64,000 nt of DNA from an uncultured Pseudokineococcus sp. (lineage in GTDB: Bacteria; Actinomycetota; Actinomycetes; Actinomycetales; Quadrisphaeraceae). Positions 52,237 to 64,000 of this stretch are shown here, piece after piece (the stretch's first letter is position 1; the number at the start of each line of letters is the position of its first letter). Both the position numbers and the translations under genes were made by a program. The DNA lies in contig NZ_CANMPM010000012.1 of NCBI RefSeq assembly GCF_947499845.1, positions 1 to 64,000 on the forward strand, written 5' to 3'. The notes under the pieces were generated by a model that saw only the letters and a program-made list of their open reading frames with translations, ran no database searches and was not told where the DNA came from.

Positions 52237-54890
52237 GGCTGCTGCGCCTGCGCCTGCAGTCCTTCCGCGGCGTCGTCGACCACGAGGTGGCCCTGGCGCC
52301 GAGCGGCGTCACGGTCGTCGTCGGCGACAACGAGGTGGGCAAGACGAGCGTCGTCGACGCCCTCGACCTCCTGCTCGACGAGTACGACGACTCCCGCAAG
52401 CGCGCGGTGCGCCAGACCCAGCCCGTCGGGCAGGACGTGCCCACCGTCGTGGAGGCCGAGGTCCGGGCCGGCCGCTACCGGTTCACGTACCGCAAGCAGT
52501 GGCACCGCCAGCCCTCGACCCGCCTCGTCGTCCACGAGCCGGCGCCCGAGCAGGTGGCCGGGCGCGAGGCCCACGCCCGGGTCCTCGAGATCCTCGGCCA
52601 GGAGGTCGACCTGCCGCTGTGGCGGGCCCTGCGGCTGCAGCAGGGCGTGGGGCTGGAGCAGGCCGAGCTCGACGCCCGCTCCTCGCTGGCGCAGGCGCTC
52701 GACGTCGGCGTCGCCGAGCAGGTCGGCGGAGAGCGCGAGGAGACGCTCGTCGCTCGCGTCGAGGCCGAGCACCTGCGCTACTTCACGCCCACGGGCGTGC
52801 CGCGCCAGGAGGCGCGCCAGCTGCAGGCGGAGGTGGCGGACGCCGCCGCGCGGGCCTCCGGGCTCGAGGCCGCCGTCGCGGAGGTCGACCGGGTCGTGGA
52901 GCGGCTCGACCGGGCCCGCGACGACGCCGCGGCCGAGCGCGCCGCCCGGGCCCGCGACGCGCAGGCGCTGCGGGCGGCCGAGCAGCACCTCGGCGCGCTC
53001 GAGCAGGTGCGCCGCGCCGCCGAGGTGGCGCGCGGCGAGGCCGCCGGCGCACGGGCGCGGGCGGCGACGGCGGAGCAGCACGAGGCCGCCCGGGAGGCCC
53101 TCGTGGTGCGGGCGCGCGAGCTCGAGGACGCGGCGGGAGACCGCCGTGACGCCGCGGCGGAGGCCGAGGAGGCCCTGGGGACGGCCCTGCAGCGCCTCGA
53201 GGTCGCCGGCGAGGAGGCGGCGGGCGCGGCGGACGCCCTCGCCCGCCGCCGCGGCGAGCGCGACGCGGCGGCCGCCGCCCGGGCCCGACGGGTCGAGGAG
53301 CGCGAGGTCGCCCGGCTGCGCGCGGTCCTCGTCGCGCACGGGCGGGCGGAGGAGGCCGTCGGCGCCGCGGCCGCCCGGCTCGCCGGCCACCGGGTCGACG
53401 ACGCGGCGCTGGCCGCGGTCGAGGACGCCCACCGCGCGGACGTCGAGGCGGCCGCGCGCGCGGGCGCCGCCGCCCCGACCGTCCTGCTCACGGGGCCCGG
53501 CCGCCGCGTCGTCACGGCGGACGGCGAGCAGCACCTCGGCGAGGAGGGCCTCGAGGTGCGCCTGGCGGGCGGCACCTGGGTCGAGGTCGACGGGGTGCGC
53601 GTGAGTGCCCGTCCCACGGGGGAGCAGGAGCGCGCCGAGGCGGCGGCGCAGCGGACGGGGCGCGCCCTGGCCGAGCGGTGCGCCGCGCTCGGCGTCGCCG
53701 ACGTCGCCGCCGCGGTGGCGGCGGCCCACGCCCGCCGGTCCGCCGCGACGGCCCTGGAGGCGGCGCAGGAGGACGCCCGGCGCGTCGCGGCGGGCGAGGA
53801 CCTCGCCGAGGCCCGGCGCCGCGTCGAGCGCTGGGACGCCGGGGCCGGCGACCGCGGGGCGCGGGCCGACGGCGACACGGAGGACCAGGAGGTCGACCCG
53901 GCGCCACGCGAGCCCGAGCAGGACGGCTCGGCCGCCGAGGAGCGCCTGGCGGCGGCCGAGGTCGCCCTGCGGGCGGCCGTCGAGGGCGACGCGCGCGCCG
54001 CGGCCCGCCGGGAGCAGGCGGTCGCCGGGGTGGAGGCCGCCCGCCGGCGCGCGGCGGAGGCCGTCGCCGCCGTCAAGGGCGCGGACGCCCGCGCGGCCGT
54101 GCTGGCCGCCGACCTGGCGGCGGCGCGGGGGGAGGCCGACGACGCCTCGCTCGCGGCGGCCCGGGCGGCCGCCGCCGACGCGCTGGTCGCCGCGGACGCG
54201 GCGCTCGCGGCCGCCGAGGCGGCCGTGGCCAGCGCGGGGGTCGAGGACGCCCAGGCGGAGGTGGCCCTGCGGGCGCAGCGGCTGCAGGACGCCGACGGAC
54301 GCCTGCGCCGGCTCGAGGACGAGGTGGGCGCGCTCGCCGCGGTGCTCGAGGACCGCGGCGGCGCCGGTCTCGTCGAGCAGCTGGCCGAGGCGCGCGCGGA
54401 GCACGACCGGCTGCAGCGCGAGCAGGTCGCCCGCGACCGGCGCGCGACGGCGGCGCGGACCCTCCACCTCGCGCTGCAGGAGGCGCGCTCGCGGGCCCAC
54501 GAGGCCTACGTGCAGCCGCTGCGGGCGCAGCTCGAGCGCCTGGCCGCGCCCGTCTTCGGGGCCGACGTGCAGGTCGAGGTCGGGGCGGACCTGCGGGTCG
54601 CCTCCCGGACGCTCGGCGGCACGACCGTCCCCTTCGACCAGCTCTCCGGTGGGGCGCGCGAGCAGCTCGCCGTCCTCGGGCGGCTGGCCTGCGCCGTCCT
54701 CGTCAGCGGGGGCGCGGGCGTGCCCGTGCTGCTCGACGACGCCCTCGGCTACTCCGACCCGGAGCGCCTGGACGGCATGGCCCGCGCGCTGGCCGCCGCG
54801 GGGGAGTCATGCCAGGTCGTCGTCCTCACCTGCGTGCCCGAGCGCTACCGCCTCGTCGCGGGCGCCCGCACGGAGCGCCTGCGCGGCTGA
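52233..54890 (+). CDS. SMC/Rad50-like ATPase
   Basis: 885 residues. Walker A V-V-V-G-D-N-E-V-G-K-T-S near 30 and the ABC signature L-S-G-G-A-R-E-Q-L-A with Walker B V-P-V-L-L-D-D-A-L-G near the end. Between them are two long Ala/Arg/Glu-rich coiled coils (about 195-370 and 530-770) split by a globular insert with V-L-L-T-G-P-G-R-R-V-V-T. A zinc hook C-x-x-C, typical of Rad50, is not seen. With the upstream nuclease it should process DNA ends. It is shorter than SbcC and closer to YhaN-type proteins. Confidence 0.82.
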   Translation: MRLLRLRLQSFRGVVDHEVALAPSGVTVVVGDNEVGKTSVVDALDLLLDEYDDSRKRAVRQTQPVGQDVPTVVEAEVRAGRYRFTYRKQWHRQPSTRLVVHEPAPEQVAGREAHARVLEILGQEVDLPLWRALRLQQGVGLEQAELDARSSLAQALDVGVAEQVGGEREETLVARVEAEHLRYFTPTGVPRQEARQLQAEVADAAARASGLEAAVAEVDRVVERLDRARDDAAAERAARARDAQALRAAEQHLGALEQVRRAAEVARGEAAGARARAATAEQHEAAREALVVRARELEDAAGDRRDAAAEAEEALGTALQRLEVAGEEAAGAADALARRRGERDAAAAARARRVEEREVARLRAVLVAHGRAEEAVGAAAARLAGHRVDDAALAAVEDAHRADVEAAARAGAAAPTVLLTGPGRRVVTADGEQHLGEEGLEVRLAGGTWVEVDGVRVSARPTGEQERAEAAAQRTGRALAERCAALGVADVAAAVAAAHARRSAATALEAAQEDARRVAAGEDLAEARRRVERWDAGAGDRGARADGDTEDQEVDPAPREPEQDGSAAEERLAAAEVALRAAVEGDARAAARREQAVAGVEAARRRAAEAVAAVKGADARAAVLAADLAAARGEADDASLAAARAAAADALVAADAALAAAEAAVASAGVEDAQAEVALRAQRLQDADGRLRRLEDEVGALAAVLEDRGGAGLVEQLAEARAEHDRLQREQVARDRRATAARTLHLALQEARSRAHEAYVQPLRAQLERLAAPVFGADVQVEVGADLRVASRTLGGTTVPFDQLSGGAREQLAVLGRLACAVLVSGGAGVPVLLDDALGYSDPERLDGMARALAAAGESCQVVVLTCVPERYRLVAGARTERLRG

Positions 54891-54924: not shown

Positions 54925-54947
54925 CGCAGATGGTCGGATCATCTGCG
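54925..54947 (+). promoter_or_regulatory. hairpin or operator between nuclease operon and GCL-like gene
   Basis: Perfect inverted repeat CGCAGATG (54925-54932), 7-nt spacer, CATCTGCG (54940-54947). Less GC-rich than its surroundings. No T-run, so it may be a protein-binding site rather than a terminator. Confidence 0.45.
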
Positions 54948-54951
54948 AGGG

Positions 54952-55045
54952 GCACGGGTGCGGGGCACCGCGATGGCATGGGTGCGGCGCACCGCGAGGG
55001 ACGGGTGCGGCGCACCCCGAGGGCACGGGTGCGGCGAGATCACGG
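54952..55045 (+). repeat. imperfect 23-24-bp tandem repeat, four units
   Basis: Units at 54952, 54976, 55000 and 55023 share a G-C-A/T-C/T-GGGTGCGG-C/G-G-CACC core; the last diverges in its second half. They lie between the hairpin and the start of the GCL-like gene. Confidence 0.75.
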
Positions 55046-55060
55046 AGAGGGGTGGGGCAG

Positions 55061-59669: not shown

Positions 59670-62626
59670 CGCCGCCGCCGCGCACCGAGCGCGGCCCGCA
59701 GCCGCCCGGCGCGGGACCACGGCGGCGCGACGGGACGCCCCGAGAGCCGGTCCGCGGCCCAGGCGGCGACGAGGGTGCGGTCGACCTTCGACTCGTGCCG
59801 GACGTCCACGGGCAGGGCCGGGACGACGAGCACGGCCGCGACGGCGGGCGCCCCGGGCAGCCCGGCGACCGCCCGCCGCACGGCGGCGACGAGGTCGGGG
59901 GCGGCCCCACCGGCGCGGCGGGTCGCCGGCTCGGTCTCGACGACGACGACGAGGGCCTGCGTGCCGGCGGGGCCCACGCCCACCGCCGCGGCCCTGGTGA
60001 CGGCGGGGACCGAGGCCGCCGCGAGCTCGACGCCCACGGGGGTCACGACGCCGGCGGCGGTGCGCACGAGGTGGGCGGTGCGGCCCTGGACGCGCAGCCG
60101 CACGCCGCCCGCCGCGCCCGTCGCCGCATCCGACGCCGGAGCCCCCGCAGCGTCTTCTCCGACGTCCGGTCGCCCGTCCGCCTCGAGCGTCCCGACGTCG
60201 CCGGTGCGGTGCCAGACGGCGCCGGACGCGTCGACGAGGCGGCTCGCGTCCTCGGTGGCCCAGAGCTGGTCGTAGCGCGCCTTGGTGTGGCCGGCGCGCA
60301 GCAGGACCTCGCCGGTCGTCCCGGGCGTGCGGACGAGGCGGTCGGTCGGCGTCCCGTCGGCGTCGAGCGGCGCGACGGCGACCTCCACCCCGTCGAGGGG
60401 GGCGCCGACGAGGACGCCGTCGGCGACGCCCGCGCCCGCCTGCCCGCCCGCCTCACCGCCTGCCTCCCCGCCTGGGCCGGCGGCCTCGAGGTCGGCGAGG
60501 CGCACGTCGGTCACGGGCAGGCCCTCGGTCATGCCGTAGGGCGTGTGCAGCGACGCCCCCGGCACGAGGGCGGCGACCTGTCGCAGCAGGGGGACGGGCA
60601 CGGGCGCCCCGGCCGACAGCAGGCGGCGCACGCCGCCCAGCGCGGTGCGCCCGCGCGCGTCGAGGCGGCCGCTCGTGGCGACCACCCCGGCGAGCGCGGC
60701 GGGGGAGGCGAAGACGACCGTGGCGCCGACGGCGGCGACGGCGTCGGCGAGCGCCGTCGCCGTGAGCGACGCCGGGGCGGTGACGTCCATGGCCGGGCTC
60801 GCGGAGACGGCCCCGAGGGCCGGGCCGAGCAGCGCGAAGGGGGCGAAGGCCGCCACGAGCGCGGTGCCGTGGTCGACCTCGTAGGCCGCGGCGACGGCGT
60901 CGCGCACCCCGGCGAGCCGGTCGTGGGTGTAGACGGCGCCCTTGGCGGGACCGGTCGACCCGGAGGTGAAGAGGACGGCGGCGTCGTCCGGCGGCGCCGG
61001 CTCGGGCAGCCGGAGGCTCGCGACGGTCGGCCGCTCGCCGGCGGGGACGCCGGCGAGGGGGCTGCGGCGCCCCCGGGCCGCCAGCCCGGCCAGCGTCGAG
61101 CCGGCGAGCCGTCGCCCGAGCGGGCCGAGCGGGCCGGCCGCGGTGCGCCGGCCGGGCCACCCGAGCGCGGCGGCCGCCACCAGGCCGCGCTCGACGGCGA
61201 CGACGTGCCGGGGCGCGGCGCCCCGCACCGCCCGGCTCAGGCCGCGGACGCCGAGGCCCTGGTCGGCGACGACGACGACGGCCCCGAGGCGCAGGCAGGC
61301 GTAGAGCGCCGTGGTGAGGTCGGCGCCGGGCGGCACGAGGAGGCTCACGCGGTCGCCCGGCCGCACGCCCTCCGCGTCCAGGCCGAGGGCCACCTCGGCG
61401 ACGCGGTGGCCCAGCTCGCGCCAGCTGAGGACGGCCGGCGCGCCGCCGCCCTCGGGGACCTCGACGACGGCGGGGCCGTCGTCGTCCGCGCGCGCCGCGA
61501 GCTCGGCCCACAGGGGCCGGCGGTGGCCGTGCGGGGCCGCGGCGGGCTCCGGGGCGGCCGCGGGGGCGCCGCTCCCGACGCCGCGCGCGGCGAGCCAGCG
61601 CAGCAGGAGGGGGCCGAGGTCGACGTCCTCGGGCACGAGGTGCCCGCCCCGCTCGACCCGGTGGACGTCGGCCCGCGGCAGCCGGGCCCGCAGGTCGCGC
61701 AGGTACTGCTCGCCGAAGACGGGGTCGCGGACGCCCCACACGAGGAGGGCGGGGACGTCGGCGGCCCCCAGGGCGTCGGCGCCGGCGGTGACCCGGTCGA
61801 GCGCCGGGCGGCTCAGGTCGTCGGCGCGCCAGGGGATGTCGGCGACGAAGCCCTCGACGGCGGCCCGGTCGGCGACGCCGCGGTAGGGCGCCCGGTAGGC
61901 GGCGCGGACCTCGTCGGGCAGGCGGCGGCGCGGCTGGGCCGCGGCCGCGCGGACGAAGGCGTCGGTCCGCGAGGTCGCCAGCGCGTGGAGGCCGGGGGCC
62001 GTCACGACCTGCAGCGCGAGGGGCAGGGCGGCGCCCGCGGGCGCGTGCACCGCCGTGTTGGTCAGCGCGAGGGCGGCCACCTGCGCGGGGTGCTCGCCCG
62101 CCCACCCGGTGACGACGACGCCGCCCCAGTCGTGGCCGAGGGCGACGACCGGGCCGGTGACCGGCGGCCAGCCGTCGTCCGTCCCCGCGCGGAGCACCTC
62201 GACGAGCGCCCCGAGGTCGGCGACGCGGTCGGCCAGGCGCCACGGGCCGCCCCCGGCGCGCGGGCGGCGGTCGGACAGGCCCATGCCGAGCTGGTCGACG
62301 GCGACCACGCGCCAGCGCCGGCCGGCGGCGTCCTCCGCGACGCCGGCGGCGACGACGTCGCGCCACAGGTAGGACCACGTCGGGTTGCCGTGGACGGCGA
62401 GCACGGTGCCCGCGGGCTCCTCGCCCTCCAGGGAGCCGGCGCCGTCGAGCACGTGCCACGTCCGCCGGGTGCCGTCGACGCTCGGCGCCTCGACGAGGCG
62501 CGACCAGCGCGGGTCGACCCCGGGCAGCGACGCCGGGTCGACGTCGGGCGCCCCCGGCGCGGTGGCGCGGGAGCGGACGGGGGGTGCGGCGAGGGGGGAG
62601 GGCGCGGGGGAGGGGGAGCCCCTCAC
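59666..62626 (-). CDS. oleBC: OleBC fusion: beta-lactone decarboxylase plus beta-lactone synthetase
   Basis: 986 residues from GTG 62626. Residues 40-350 are OleB, an alpha/beta hydrolase related to haloalkane dehalogenases: H-G-N-P-T-W near 79, G-H-D-W-G-G with nucleophile Asp-166, W-G-V-R-D-P with Asp-301, and R-G-G-H-L with His-329. Residues 370-986 are OleC, an AMP-ligase fold: L-F-T-S-G-S-T-G-P-A-K-G (552-563), T-P-Y-G-M-T-E-G and H-R-T-G-D-V-G. OleC closes a beta-lactone using ATP and OleB removes CO2. A GTGA overlap joins it to oleA. Such fusions occur in actinobacteria. Confidence 0.9.
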   Translation of the reverse strand: MRGSPSPAPSPLAAPPVRSRATAPGAPDVDPASLPGVDPRWSRLVEAPSVDGTRRTWHVLDGAGSLEGEEPAGTVLAVHGNPTWSYLWRDVVAAGVAEDAAGRRWRVVAVDQLGMGLSDRRPRAGGGPWRLADRVADLGALVEVLRAGTDDGWPPVTGPVVALGHDWGGVVVTGWAGEHPAQVAALALTNTAVHAPAGAALPLALQVVTAPGLHALATSRTDAFVRAAAAQPRRRLPDEVRAAYRAPYRGVADRAAVEGFVADIPWRADDLSRPALDRVTAGADALGAADVPALLVWGVRDPVFGEQYLRDLRARLPRADVHRVERGGHLVPEDVDLGPLLLRWLAARGVGSGAPAAAPEPAAAPHGHRRPLWAELAARADDDGPAVVEVPEGGGAPAVLSWRELGHRVAEVALGLDAEGVRPGDRVSLLVPPGADLTTALYACLRLGAVVVVADQGLGVRGLSRAVRGAAPRHVVAVERGLVAAAALGWPGRRTAAGPLGPLGRRLAGSTLAGLAARGRRSPLAGVPAGERPTVASLRLPEPAPPDDAAVLFTSGSTGPAKGAVYTHDRLAGVRDAVAAAYEVDHGTALVAAFAPFALLGPALGAVSASPAMDVTAPASLTATALADAVAAVGATVVFASPAALAGVVATSGRLDARGRTALGGVRRLLSAGAPVPVPLLRQVAALVPGASLHTPYGMTEGLPVTDVRLADLEAAGPGGEAGGEAGGQAGAGVADGVLVGAPLDGVEVAVAPLDADGTPTDRLVRTPGTTGEVLLRAGHTKARYDQLWATEDASRLVDASGAVWHRTGDVGTLEADGRPDVGEDAAGAPASDAATGAAGGVRLRVQGRTAHLVRTAAGVVTPVGVELAAASVPAVTRAAAVGVGPAGTQALVVVVETEPATRRAGGAAPDLVAAVRRAVAGLPGAPAVAAVLVVPALPVDVRHESKVDRTLVAAWAADRLSGRPVAPPWSRAGRLRAALGARRRR

Positions 62627-63654
62627 CAGCGGATCTCCGTCATGGCCGTGTTGAGGCCGGAGCCGACGCCCATGCAGAGCACCCGGTCGCCGGGGCGCAG
62701 CGACGGCGCCTCGGCCGCCAGCGTCATGGGCAGGGCGGCCGGGCCGACGTTGCCCCAGCGCGGGAAGGTCAGCGGCACGCGCTCCGGGTCGATGCCGATG
62801 CGCTCCACGAGGGCGCGCGTGTGGACGGTGCTCACCTGGTGGAGGACGTAGCGGTCCATGTCCTTCCACTCCCAGCCGTCGGCCTGCGCGTCGTCCCACG
62901 CGTCGCCGACGAGCTGCATGCCCTCCTCGAGCAAGCCCCGGGCGTCGGTGACCATGCCGTCGTTGCTGCCGACGCAGAGCTCGTGGGCCGAGCTGCGGGC
63001 CCGCGACACGCCCCCGAGGACCTGCGGGGCGCCGGAGTGGTCCTCGGCCGGGCCGAGAACGGCCGCCGCGGCGCCCGAGCCGAGGGTGAGGGTGGCGAAG
63101 GCGTCGGTGTAGTCGCGCCGGGTGGCGTCCTCGGCCGACAGCCGCCGCAGGGTGGACTCGTGCACCGGGCGGGCGTCCTCGCCGTCGACGACGAGGGCGT
63201 AGCGGATCTGCCCGTTCTCGATCATCGTCGCCGCGAGCGTGAGCGCGTTGACGAAGCCGAGGCAGGCGTTGGTGATGTCGAAGTTGAGCGCCGAGGTCGG
63301 CAGCCCGAGCGCGTGGTGGATGCCGACGGCCACCGACGGCTCGAGGTTGGCGCGGTAGACGGACGTGTTGACGAGCAGCCCGACCTGGCCGGGCTCGACG
63401 CCCGCGGCCTCGAGGGCCTGGCGCCCCGCGCGGGCGGCGCCCTGCGCGGCGTCCTCCTCCTCGCCCCACCAGCGGCGCTCCTCGATGCCCGCCAGCGAGG
63501 CGAGCGTGCCGGGGCGCATGCGCAGGCGGCGCAGGGTCGGGGCGAGCCGCTCCTCCATCGACGCCGACGTGACGACGACGGGCGCCTCGACCGCGCTCGT
63601 GCCGAGCAGGGCGGTGCCCTCGTGGTGGATGGAAGTGTTGCCCGACACGCGCAT
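62623..63654 (-). CDS. oleA: OleA, acyl-CoA head-to-head condensing thiolase
   Basis: 343 residues. Active-site Cys-131 in F-D-I-T-N-A-C-L-G-F, His-272 in Y-V-L-H-Q-V-S-T and Asn-302 in W-G-N-V-G-P form the thiolase triad. Glu-105 in R-A-N-L-E-P-S-V matches the Glu that is special to OleA (Glu117 in Xanthomonas). It condenses two fatty acyl-CoAs into a beta-keto acid. First gene of the operon oleA-oleBC-oleD. Possible -10 and inverted repeat lie upstream. Confidence 0.9.
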   Translation of the reverse strand: MRVSGNTSIHHEGTALLGTSAVEAPVVVTSASMEERLAPTLRRLRMRPGTLASLAGIEERRWWGEEEDAAQGAARAGRQALEAAGVEPGQVGLLVNTSVYRANLEPSVAVGIHHALGLPTSALNFDITNACLGFVNALTLAATMIENGQIRYALVVDGEDARPVHESTLRRLSAEDATRRDYTDAFATLTLGSGAAAAVLGPAEDHSGAPQVLGGVSRARSSAHELCVGSNDGMVTDARGLLEEGMQLVGDAWDDAQADGWEWKDMDRYVLHQVSTVHTRALVERIGIDPERVPLTFPRWGNVGPAALPMTLAAEAPSLRPGDRVLCMGVGSGLNTAMTEIRW

Positions 63655-63711
63655 CGTCCGTCCTGCTCGAGGAGTGGCGCCCAGCGGGGGCGGTGCGGCG
63701 ACCGCGCCCCG

Positions 63712-63753
63712 GGCGCACGGGCGAGAAGTCTGCCACTGCTCGGCCCGTGCGCC
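63712..63753 (-). promoter_or_regulatory. 11-bp inverted repeat upstream of oleA
   Basis: GGCGCACGGGC (63712-63722), 20-nt spacer, GCCCGTGCGCC (63743-63753), a perfect match about 60 nt before the oleA ATG. The spacer on the minus strand contains CAGACT, a possible -10. It could be a repressor site controlling the ole operon. Confidence 0.5.
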
Positions 63754-63835
63754 TTCCGGCGACGCCCTGACCCGGTGCCCGAGGTCACGAGCCGGGTCGC
63801 CGGGGCGGCGCGCCGGGAGCGGGAGGAGCTCAGCT

Positions 63836-63902
63836 CCAGGAGGGGCTGGGGTTGAGGGGGGGCTCAGGTCCCAGAGGGGCTGGGCCTCAGGAGGGGCTGA
63901 GG
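63836..63902. repeat. array of four small hairpins
   Basis: CCAG-GAGGGG-CTGG (63836-63849), TGAG-GGGGGG-CTCA (63853-63866), CCCAG-AGGGG-CTGGG (63870-63884) and CCTCAG-GAGGGG-CTGAGG (63885-63902). The loops are near-identical while the stems change in step. The last includes the stop codon of the downstream-edge gene. It may stabilise or end its mRNA. Confidence 0.65.
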
Positions 63903-64000
63903 TTCCACTGCCGCACGGTGGGCACGCGGTGGTTCTCGCCCAGCACGCTCAGCGACGCCGGGCTCAGCTCCAGCGCGGCGGCGGCGCTGGGCGGCAGGCC
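63887..64000 (-). CDS. probable histidine-phosphatase family protein, C-terminal part (cut by window edge)
   Basis: 37 residues before TGA 63889-63887. L-S-P-A-S-L-S-V-L-G-E-N-H-R-V-P, then V-R-Q-W-N-L, resembles the S-x-S-V-L-G...W-N ending of phosphoglycerate-mutase-type phosphatases in actinobacteria. The catalytic R-H-G would lie outside the window. Identification tentative. Confidence 0.45.
   Translation of the reverse strand, partial: GLPPSAAAALELSPASLSVLGENHRVPTVRQWNLSPS

Follow-up and report, generated by a model that had tools for sequence, protein, structure and literature searches.

Intergenic tandem repeats that overlap gene ends are familiar in an actinobacterial setting from the MIRU elements of mycobacteria, which constitute one homologous family distributed over many loci. 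The array described here shares with the MIRUs its intergenic position, its overlap with a gene end and its actinobacterial host, but it is unique in its genome where a MIRU recurs at many places. The published repeats whose geometry comes closest are, as far as we found, those of Borg elements; these tandem repeats can start within the end of a gene, and they evolve rapidly (PMC9879509). The Borg repeats, as outlined in that paper, are perfect, A-rich and carried by archaeal extrachromosomal elements, whereas the present array is degenerate and C-rich and lies in a high-GC actinobacterial genome (PMC9879509).

Minisatellites have been listed as one class of the small segments that vary among the strains of a species (PMC2884548). 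The array resembles the bacterial minisatellites, or VNTRs, in its short head-to-tail units, its mostly non-coding position, its fast divergence and its absence from some relatives, but its 17-bp units are strongly degenerate, in contrast to the 90% identity and the unit of at least 20 bp that are used as thresholds in that account (PMC2884548). The REP and BIME sequences of enterobacteria are intergenic palindromes that can be clustered (PMC2884548), a likeness offset by their size of 30-37 bp and their dispersal as a family, as opposed to the single locus and 17-bp unit found here.

The locus and its neighbourhood

The window, by which is meant the whole stretch of 64,000 nucleotides that was analysed (78% GC), ends within a phosphatase gene, downstream of which, at a spacing of 232 bp and likewise on the minus strand, lies a gene for a 3-oxoacyl-ACP synthase III. 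From its neighbours, we take the latter to be oleA-like. The features that matter for the argument are as follows.

62623..63654, minus strand: 3-oxoacyl-ACP synthase III gene, next downstream (NCBIfam NF006720, 441 bits against a cut-off of 285)
63887..64000, minus strand: 3' part of a histidine phosphatase superfamily gene (258 aa, reaching 64663 beyond the window; Pfam PF00300, E 3e-51; open frame and gene call)
63887-63889, minus strand: stop codon TGA of the phosphatase gene, inside hairpin 63885-63902
63836-63849: hairpin, 4-bp stem, loop GAGGGG
63853-63866: hairpin, 4-bp stem, loop GGGGGG
63870-63884: hairpin, 5-bp stem, loop AGGGG
63885-63902: hairpin, 6-bp stem, loop GAGGGG
63842..63862, plus strand: G-quadruplex motif, on the strand opposite the mRNA

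At 63712-63753, in the stretch that separates the array from the synthase gene, an inverted repeat (GGCGCACGGGC ... GCCCGTGCGCC) flanks a CAGTGGCAGACT core and is largely kept in all four genomes of the genus; it looks like an operator or promoter region of the downstream operon. Elsewhere in the window, a second intergenic tandem array (54945-55058; 24-bp unit, 3.8 copies, TRF score up to 142) sits between a gene ending at 54890 and the next same-strand gene, with the palindrome GGTGCGgCGCACC in its unit. A known RNA family was also sought for the hairpin region, and Rfam returned none up to E 1 in 63000-64000.

Hairpins and tandem repetition

The original prediction had described four small hairpins with shared loops and stems of 4-6 bp, and all four are present as perfect hairpins at the coordinates given for them. 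They were rightly placed over the end of the neighbouring gene as well, the TGA falling within 63885-63902 and the remaining three hairpins lying past the stop. Hairpins as such, nevertheless, are not above chance here. When perfect hairpins with a stem of at least 4 bp and a loop of 3-7 bases were counted, at least four non-overlapping ones per 67 bp occurred at 90 places in the 64 kb against 65-86 in ten dinucleotide shuffles, so that four hairpins in such a span are ordinary at 78% GC.

The predicted folding is equally unexceptional. The fold-energy z was -1.96 (minus strand) and -0.90 (plus strand) for 63836-63902, and -1.83 and -1.94, respectively, for the wider stretch 63815-63910; with a rank of 71 among 173 gene ends of the genome, the locus is unremarkable. 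In the best minus-strand fold of the 96 bases from 63815 to 63910, three of the hairpins form, and the place of the fourth is taken by an alternative that overlaps it; the best fold of the exact 67 bases contains two. Thirteen G-quadruplex motifs occur in the window, and none was found in the 100 nt around the corresponding gene end of the closest relative (G001).

Tandem repetition, unlike the hairpins, is beyond chance. Five degenerate 17-bp units follow one another head to tail on the minus strand over 63819-63903, the first of which consists of the phosphatase gene's final 17 bases, with the stop codon among them.

63887..63903, minus strand: unit 1, last codons and stop; with two more bases it makes the 6-bp hairpin 63885-63902
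63870..63886, minus strand: unit 2, 11/17 identical to unit 1; 5-bp hairpin 63870-63884
63853..63869, minus strand: unit 3, 14/17 identical to unit 1; 4-bp hairpin 63853-63866
63836..63852, minus strand: unit 4, 15/17 identical to unit 1; 4-bp hairpin 63836-63849
63819..63835, minus strand: unit 5, 12/17 identical to unit 1; missing from the original prediction

The tandem arrangement and its position at a gene end had been recognised correctly, and the constant period is borne out by TRF, which reports a period of 34 with a score of 102 and a period of 17 with a score of 49. The 34-bp period arises from units 2-3 and units 4-5 taken together, and because these two pairs resemble each other, a 34-bp duplication probably took place after the first ones. 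Scores of at least 95 were absent from ten shuffles of 201 gene ends and occurred 0.2 times on average in five further shuffles of 203 ends; within the window, three loci score above the array's 102 and one equals it.

Comparison within the genus

The comparison within the genus covers four genomes, one genome per species. The closest relative, G001, shares 98% identity in the phosphatase protein, while the other orthologous proteins are 86% (G003) and 74% (G002) identical. An array of five units is likewise found in G001 (17-bp TRF period, score 70), so that both carriers, each represented by one genome, have the same unit number. Its units 2-5 match the coding end at 16, 12, 10, and 13 of 17 bases, the second unit being a near copy only one base off the gene end. 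In G003 and G002, the orthologous gene and gap are present without the array, and no tandem repeat was detected there at a TRF score of 30.

Between the window and G001, units 2-5 are identical at 44 of 67 bases, a divergence of 34% that depends on a unit-by-unit alignment of degenerate repeats, in which turnover could mimic substitution. The flanks agree far better, with 149/162 bases identical in the rest of the gap (Fisher p 3.5e-6 for array against rest of gap), 750/774 in the gene and 885/900 in the start of the next gene. Since the array is present in two congeners, absent in two, and diverged beyond its flanks, it is probably young relative to the genus as a whole and quick to change. 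In a wider search of 59 genomes with this C-rich query, matches at E of 1 or below appeared in 51, most of them 15-50 bases long; outside G001, the strongest (E 5e-4) was in G044, where two matches of about 60 bases lie on one contig.

Tandem repeats at other gene ends

The occurrence of tandem repeats at gene ends in general was surveyed over 472 kb of the genome, with genes called by a simple self-made caller in place of an established program, and the sample consisted of the 201 gene ends with at least 85 nt free of called genes past the stop. At a TRF score of at least 60, repeats were found at 29/201 gene ends, compared with 10/268 gene starts (Fisher p 6e-5), 3/357 coding middles (p 5.5e-11), and 0-3/201 in ten shuffles. 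At a score of at least 40, the corresponding figures were 57/201, 44/268, 20/357, and 7-14/201. Some arrays are counted at two ends because convergent genes share a gap; once each gap is counted a single time, the 29 ends correspond to 26 separate arrays among 171 gaps (p 5e-5 relative to starts). Restriction to same-strand gaps, where one gap can enter the tally as a gene end and again as a gene start, leaves 14/124 (p 0.006 against starts). Arrays covering the stop codon numbered 12/57 against 1-5 in shuffles, an excess which shows no preference for the stop itself, because gene ends have more arrays overall.

Most of the gene-end arrays listed have units of their own, with two ends of stretch L142 sharing one: the 41-bp tandem repeats at the gene ends L142:15654 and L142:18855 look related to each other (GGCGGACTTCGTAGCCTTC motif), unlike most arrays. 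Five gene-end arrays, picked as strong or stop-covering and hence a non-random choice, were searched in the genus. Three of the five had an orthologous stretch in G001, and the other two, without a G001 match, were counted neither way. All three stop-covering arrays that could be aligned, in which the final 12-18 bases at the stop are copied in tandem, are absent from G001 at the same place.

L130:9253-9310: gene-end array, two extra 18-base copies
L132:18402-18439: gene-end array, two extra 12-base copies
L147:2777-2874: gene-end array, 17-base

Beside the last of these, at L147:2869-2941, a strong palindrome lies past the gene end, parts of which have matches at several further sites of this genome and also in relatives; it might be a repeat of the genus, terminator-like or REP-like, that occurs dispersed.

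Gene ends with arrays (29) were not more folded than those without (144; p 0.59), and their C-skew was not clearly higher (p 0.17), the comparison leaving aside the 28 gene ends with TRF scores of 40-59. In small samples of other genomes, scores of at least 60 were reached at 10/99 gene ends in G003, 3/80 in G002, 0/30 in G004, 7/28 in G006, 1/29 in G057, and 1/27 in G053. The gene-end excess is thus not uniform across genomes and is firmly claimed only for the present one. A limited literature search, which is weak evidence of absence, found no published treatment of gene-end arrays in this genus.

Proposed origin of the array

The reading that we favour, and regard as probable, is that the array is a fast-turning, degenerate gene-end minisatellite whose hairpins stem from a half-palindromic, C-rich unit. 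An ancestor common to this species and G001, the nearest relative sampled, would have undergone a tandem duplication of the final 17 bases of the phosphatase gene with its stop codon, probably via replication slippage or unequal exchange. Lying past the first stop, the copies would be neutral to the protein and therefore free to drift and to turn over fast. The founding unit, rich in C on the mRNA strand, would have been half palindromic: TCAG and CTGA (the stop codon inside the latter) enclose a C-rich loop, so that every copy would start out as a little hairpin with an identical loop. The differing stems would then arise from later copies, the 34-bp secondary duplication, and drift. Because other gene ends carry repeats too and G001 has largely lost the hairpins, these are probably a by-product, not a working device. 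Any effect on transcription, such as the loading of Rho on C-rich untranslated RNA, would be incidental.

A broader proposal, put forward tentatively, is that the gene ends of this lineage may be hot spots at which the last 12-18 bases together with the stop are repeatedly copied in tandem, giving rise to locus-specific arrays of spare stops and tails, the present array among them, with a turnover fast enough to set close species apart. In some of these, including the present one, the copied stop would make a palindrome, whereby new 3' hairpins would appear and terminators could be born from coding ends.

Alternative explanations

The alternative that survives best, albeit at a clearly lower probability than the gene-end minisatellite, is that the C-rich, G-poor array after the stop might serve as a candidate rut site, on which Rho would load as the ribosomes leave, thereby separating the phosphatase from the synthase. 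Such a site has been described as some 78 nt in which C outnumbers G and the cytosines are spaced (PMC6407284); the array fits the C>G part of this description. The 85 nt past the stop contain 47 C, 20 G, and 34 YC dinucleotides, with a skew of 0.40 that ranks third among the 201 gene ends; an excess of C over G is by itself a weak criterion, a C/G ratio above 1 being found at over half of these ends (median skew 0.03). Further marks of a rut site are cytosines at intervals of 11-13 nt and a pause site downstream. The G001 array, though diverged, retains the same skew (48 C, 20 G), and the same-strand gap holds the separately conserved inverted repeat, which resembles a control region of the next gene's own. 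Against this, the array-less orthologues display little or no bias (33 C and 36 G, and 41 C and 33 G), so that the excess of C over G is not conserved at the phosphatase gene end, and a shared C-rich unit yields the same skew without selection. Moreover, the predicted hairpins would impede the use of a rut site, and array-bearing gene ends in general are, as given above, not clearly more C-skewed. Given the covariation of the units, set out below, together with the strong C>G bias, a role of the array in termination is possible.

Less likely still is the explanation originally put forward, namely an array of hairpins selected for its structure, which would act as a putative terminator or as a protector of the mRNA 3' end. 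The matching stem changes on which it was founded are real at two stem positions among the units of the window: at the first, UA occurs in two units and CG in two, and at the second, CG occurs in three and GC in one. The covariation score of the five units was reached by 25 of 500 shuffles, a modest support; with all ten units of the window and G001, a single shuffle in 500 reached it, and no slid register scored as high as the true one. For G001 by itself, four of the five units were taken, omitting one with a deletion that the ten-unit run includes, and 28 of 500 shuffles reached the score. The ten-unit value is inflated by the relatedness of the units, and related sequences in general can beat shuffles without any structure. 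In addition, all four extra units of the window retain a stem of at least 4 bp, for which a simple neutral model gives a probability of about 0.02 for at least three of the four and, by multiplication of the per-unit values, about 0.001 for all four; for comparison, 25% of random 19-mers with a similar base composition contain such a stem. Folding of 63815-63910 on the minus strand, with three of the claimed hairpins and an alternative to the fourth, points the same way.

These indications are countered by the closest relative, in which none of the four extra units has a 4-bp Watson-Crick stem (one of four if G-U is allowed), and the fold z of the array is 0.09 on the transcribed strand, no better than that of shuffles, and -1.48 on the plus strand. 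The array is also devoid of a T-run and an Rfam match, and its fold does not stand out among gene ends. Without any selection, matching arms could, furthermore, be produced when imperfect palindromes are repaired by template switching. The locus had also been chosen out of the 64 kb for showing just such paired stems. Selection on structure is weakly indicated at most: the units covary somewhat and the stems are kept in this genome, but stems and folding are largely lost in G001, and two congeners are without the element. We conclude that the palindromic founder unit accounts for most of the pairing, with some evidence hinting at more. The more specific notion of an intrinsic terminator array was not borne out, in that no hairpin with a T-run was found in 62000-64000 on either strand.

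Lastly, a dispersed mobile palindromic repeat of the REP or BIME kind, which the palindromic, tandem, and intergenic unit might bring to mind, is highly improbable: the genome search for its units found the element in a single copy (next best match E 0.08), CAGGAGGGGCTG, the unit proposed for such a search, is rarer than its reversed control (6 against 12), only G001 among the congeners has an array at this place, and the unit resembles the local coding end.

Significance

With the gene-end minisatellite as the preferred explanation, a pattern resembling selected RNA structure would be a likely consequence of the way in which short tandem repeats originate at the gene ends of a very GC-rich genome. 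The excess of repeats at the sampled gene ends over gene starts and coding interiors, with at least three of these repeats absent from the closest relative, offers a modest lead on the making of bacterial 3' untranslated regions and on the reason for which hairpin counts, taken by themselves, are misleading in DNA of 78% GC.
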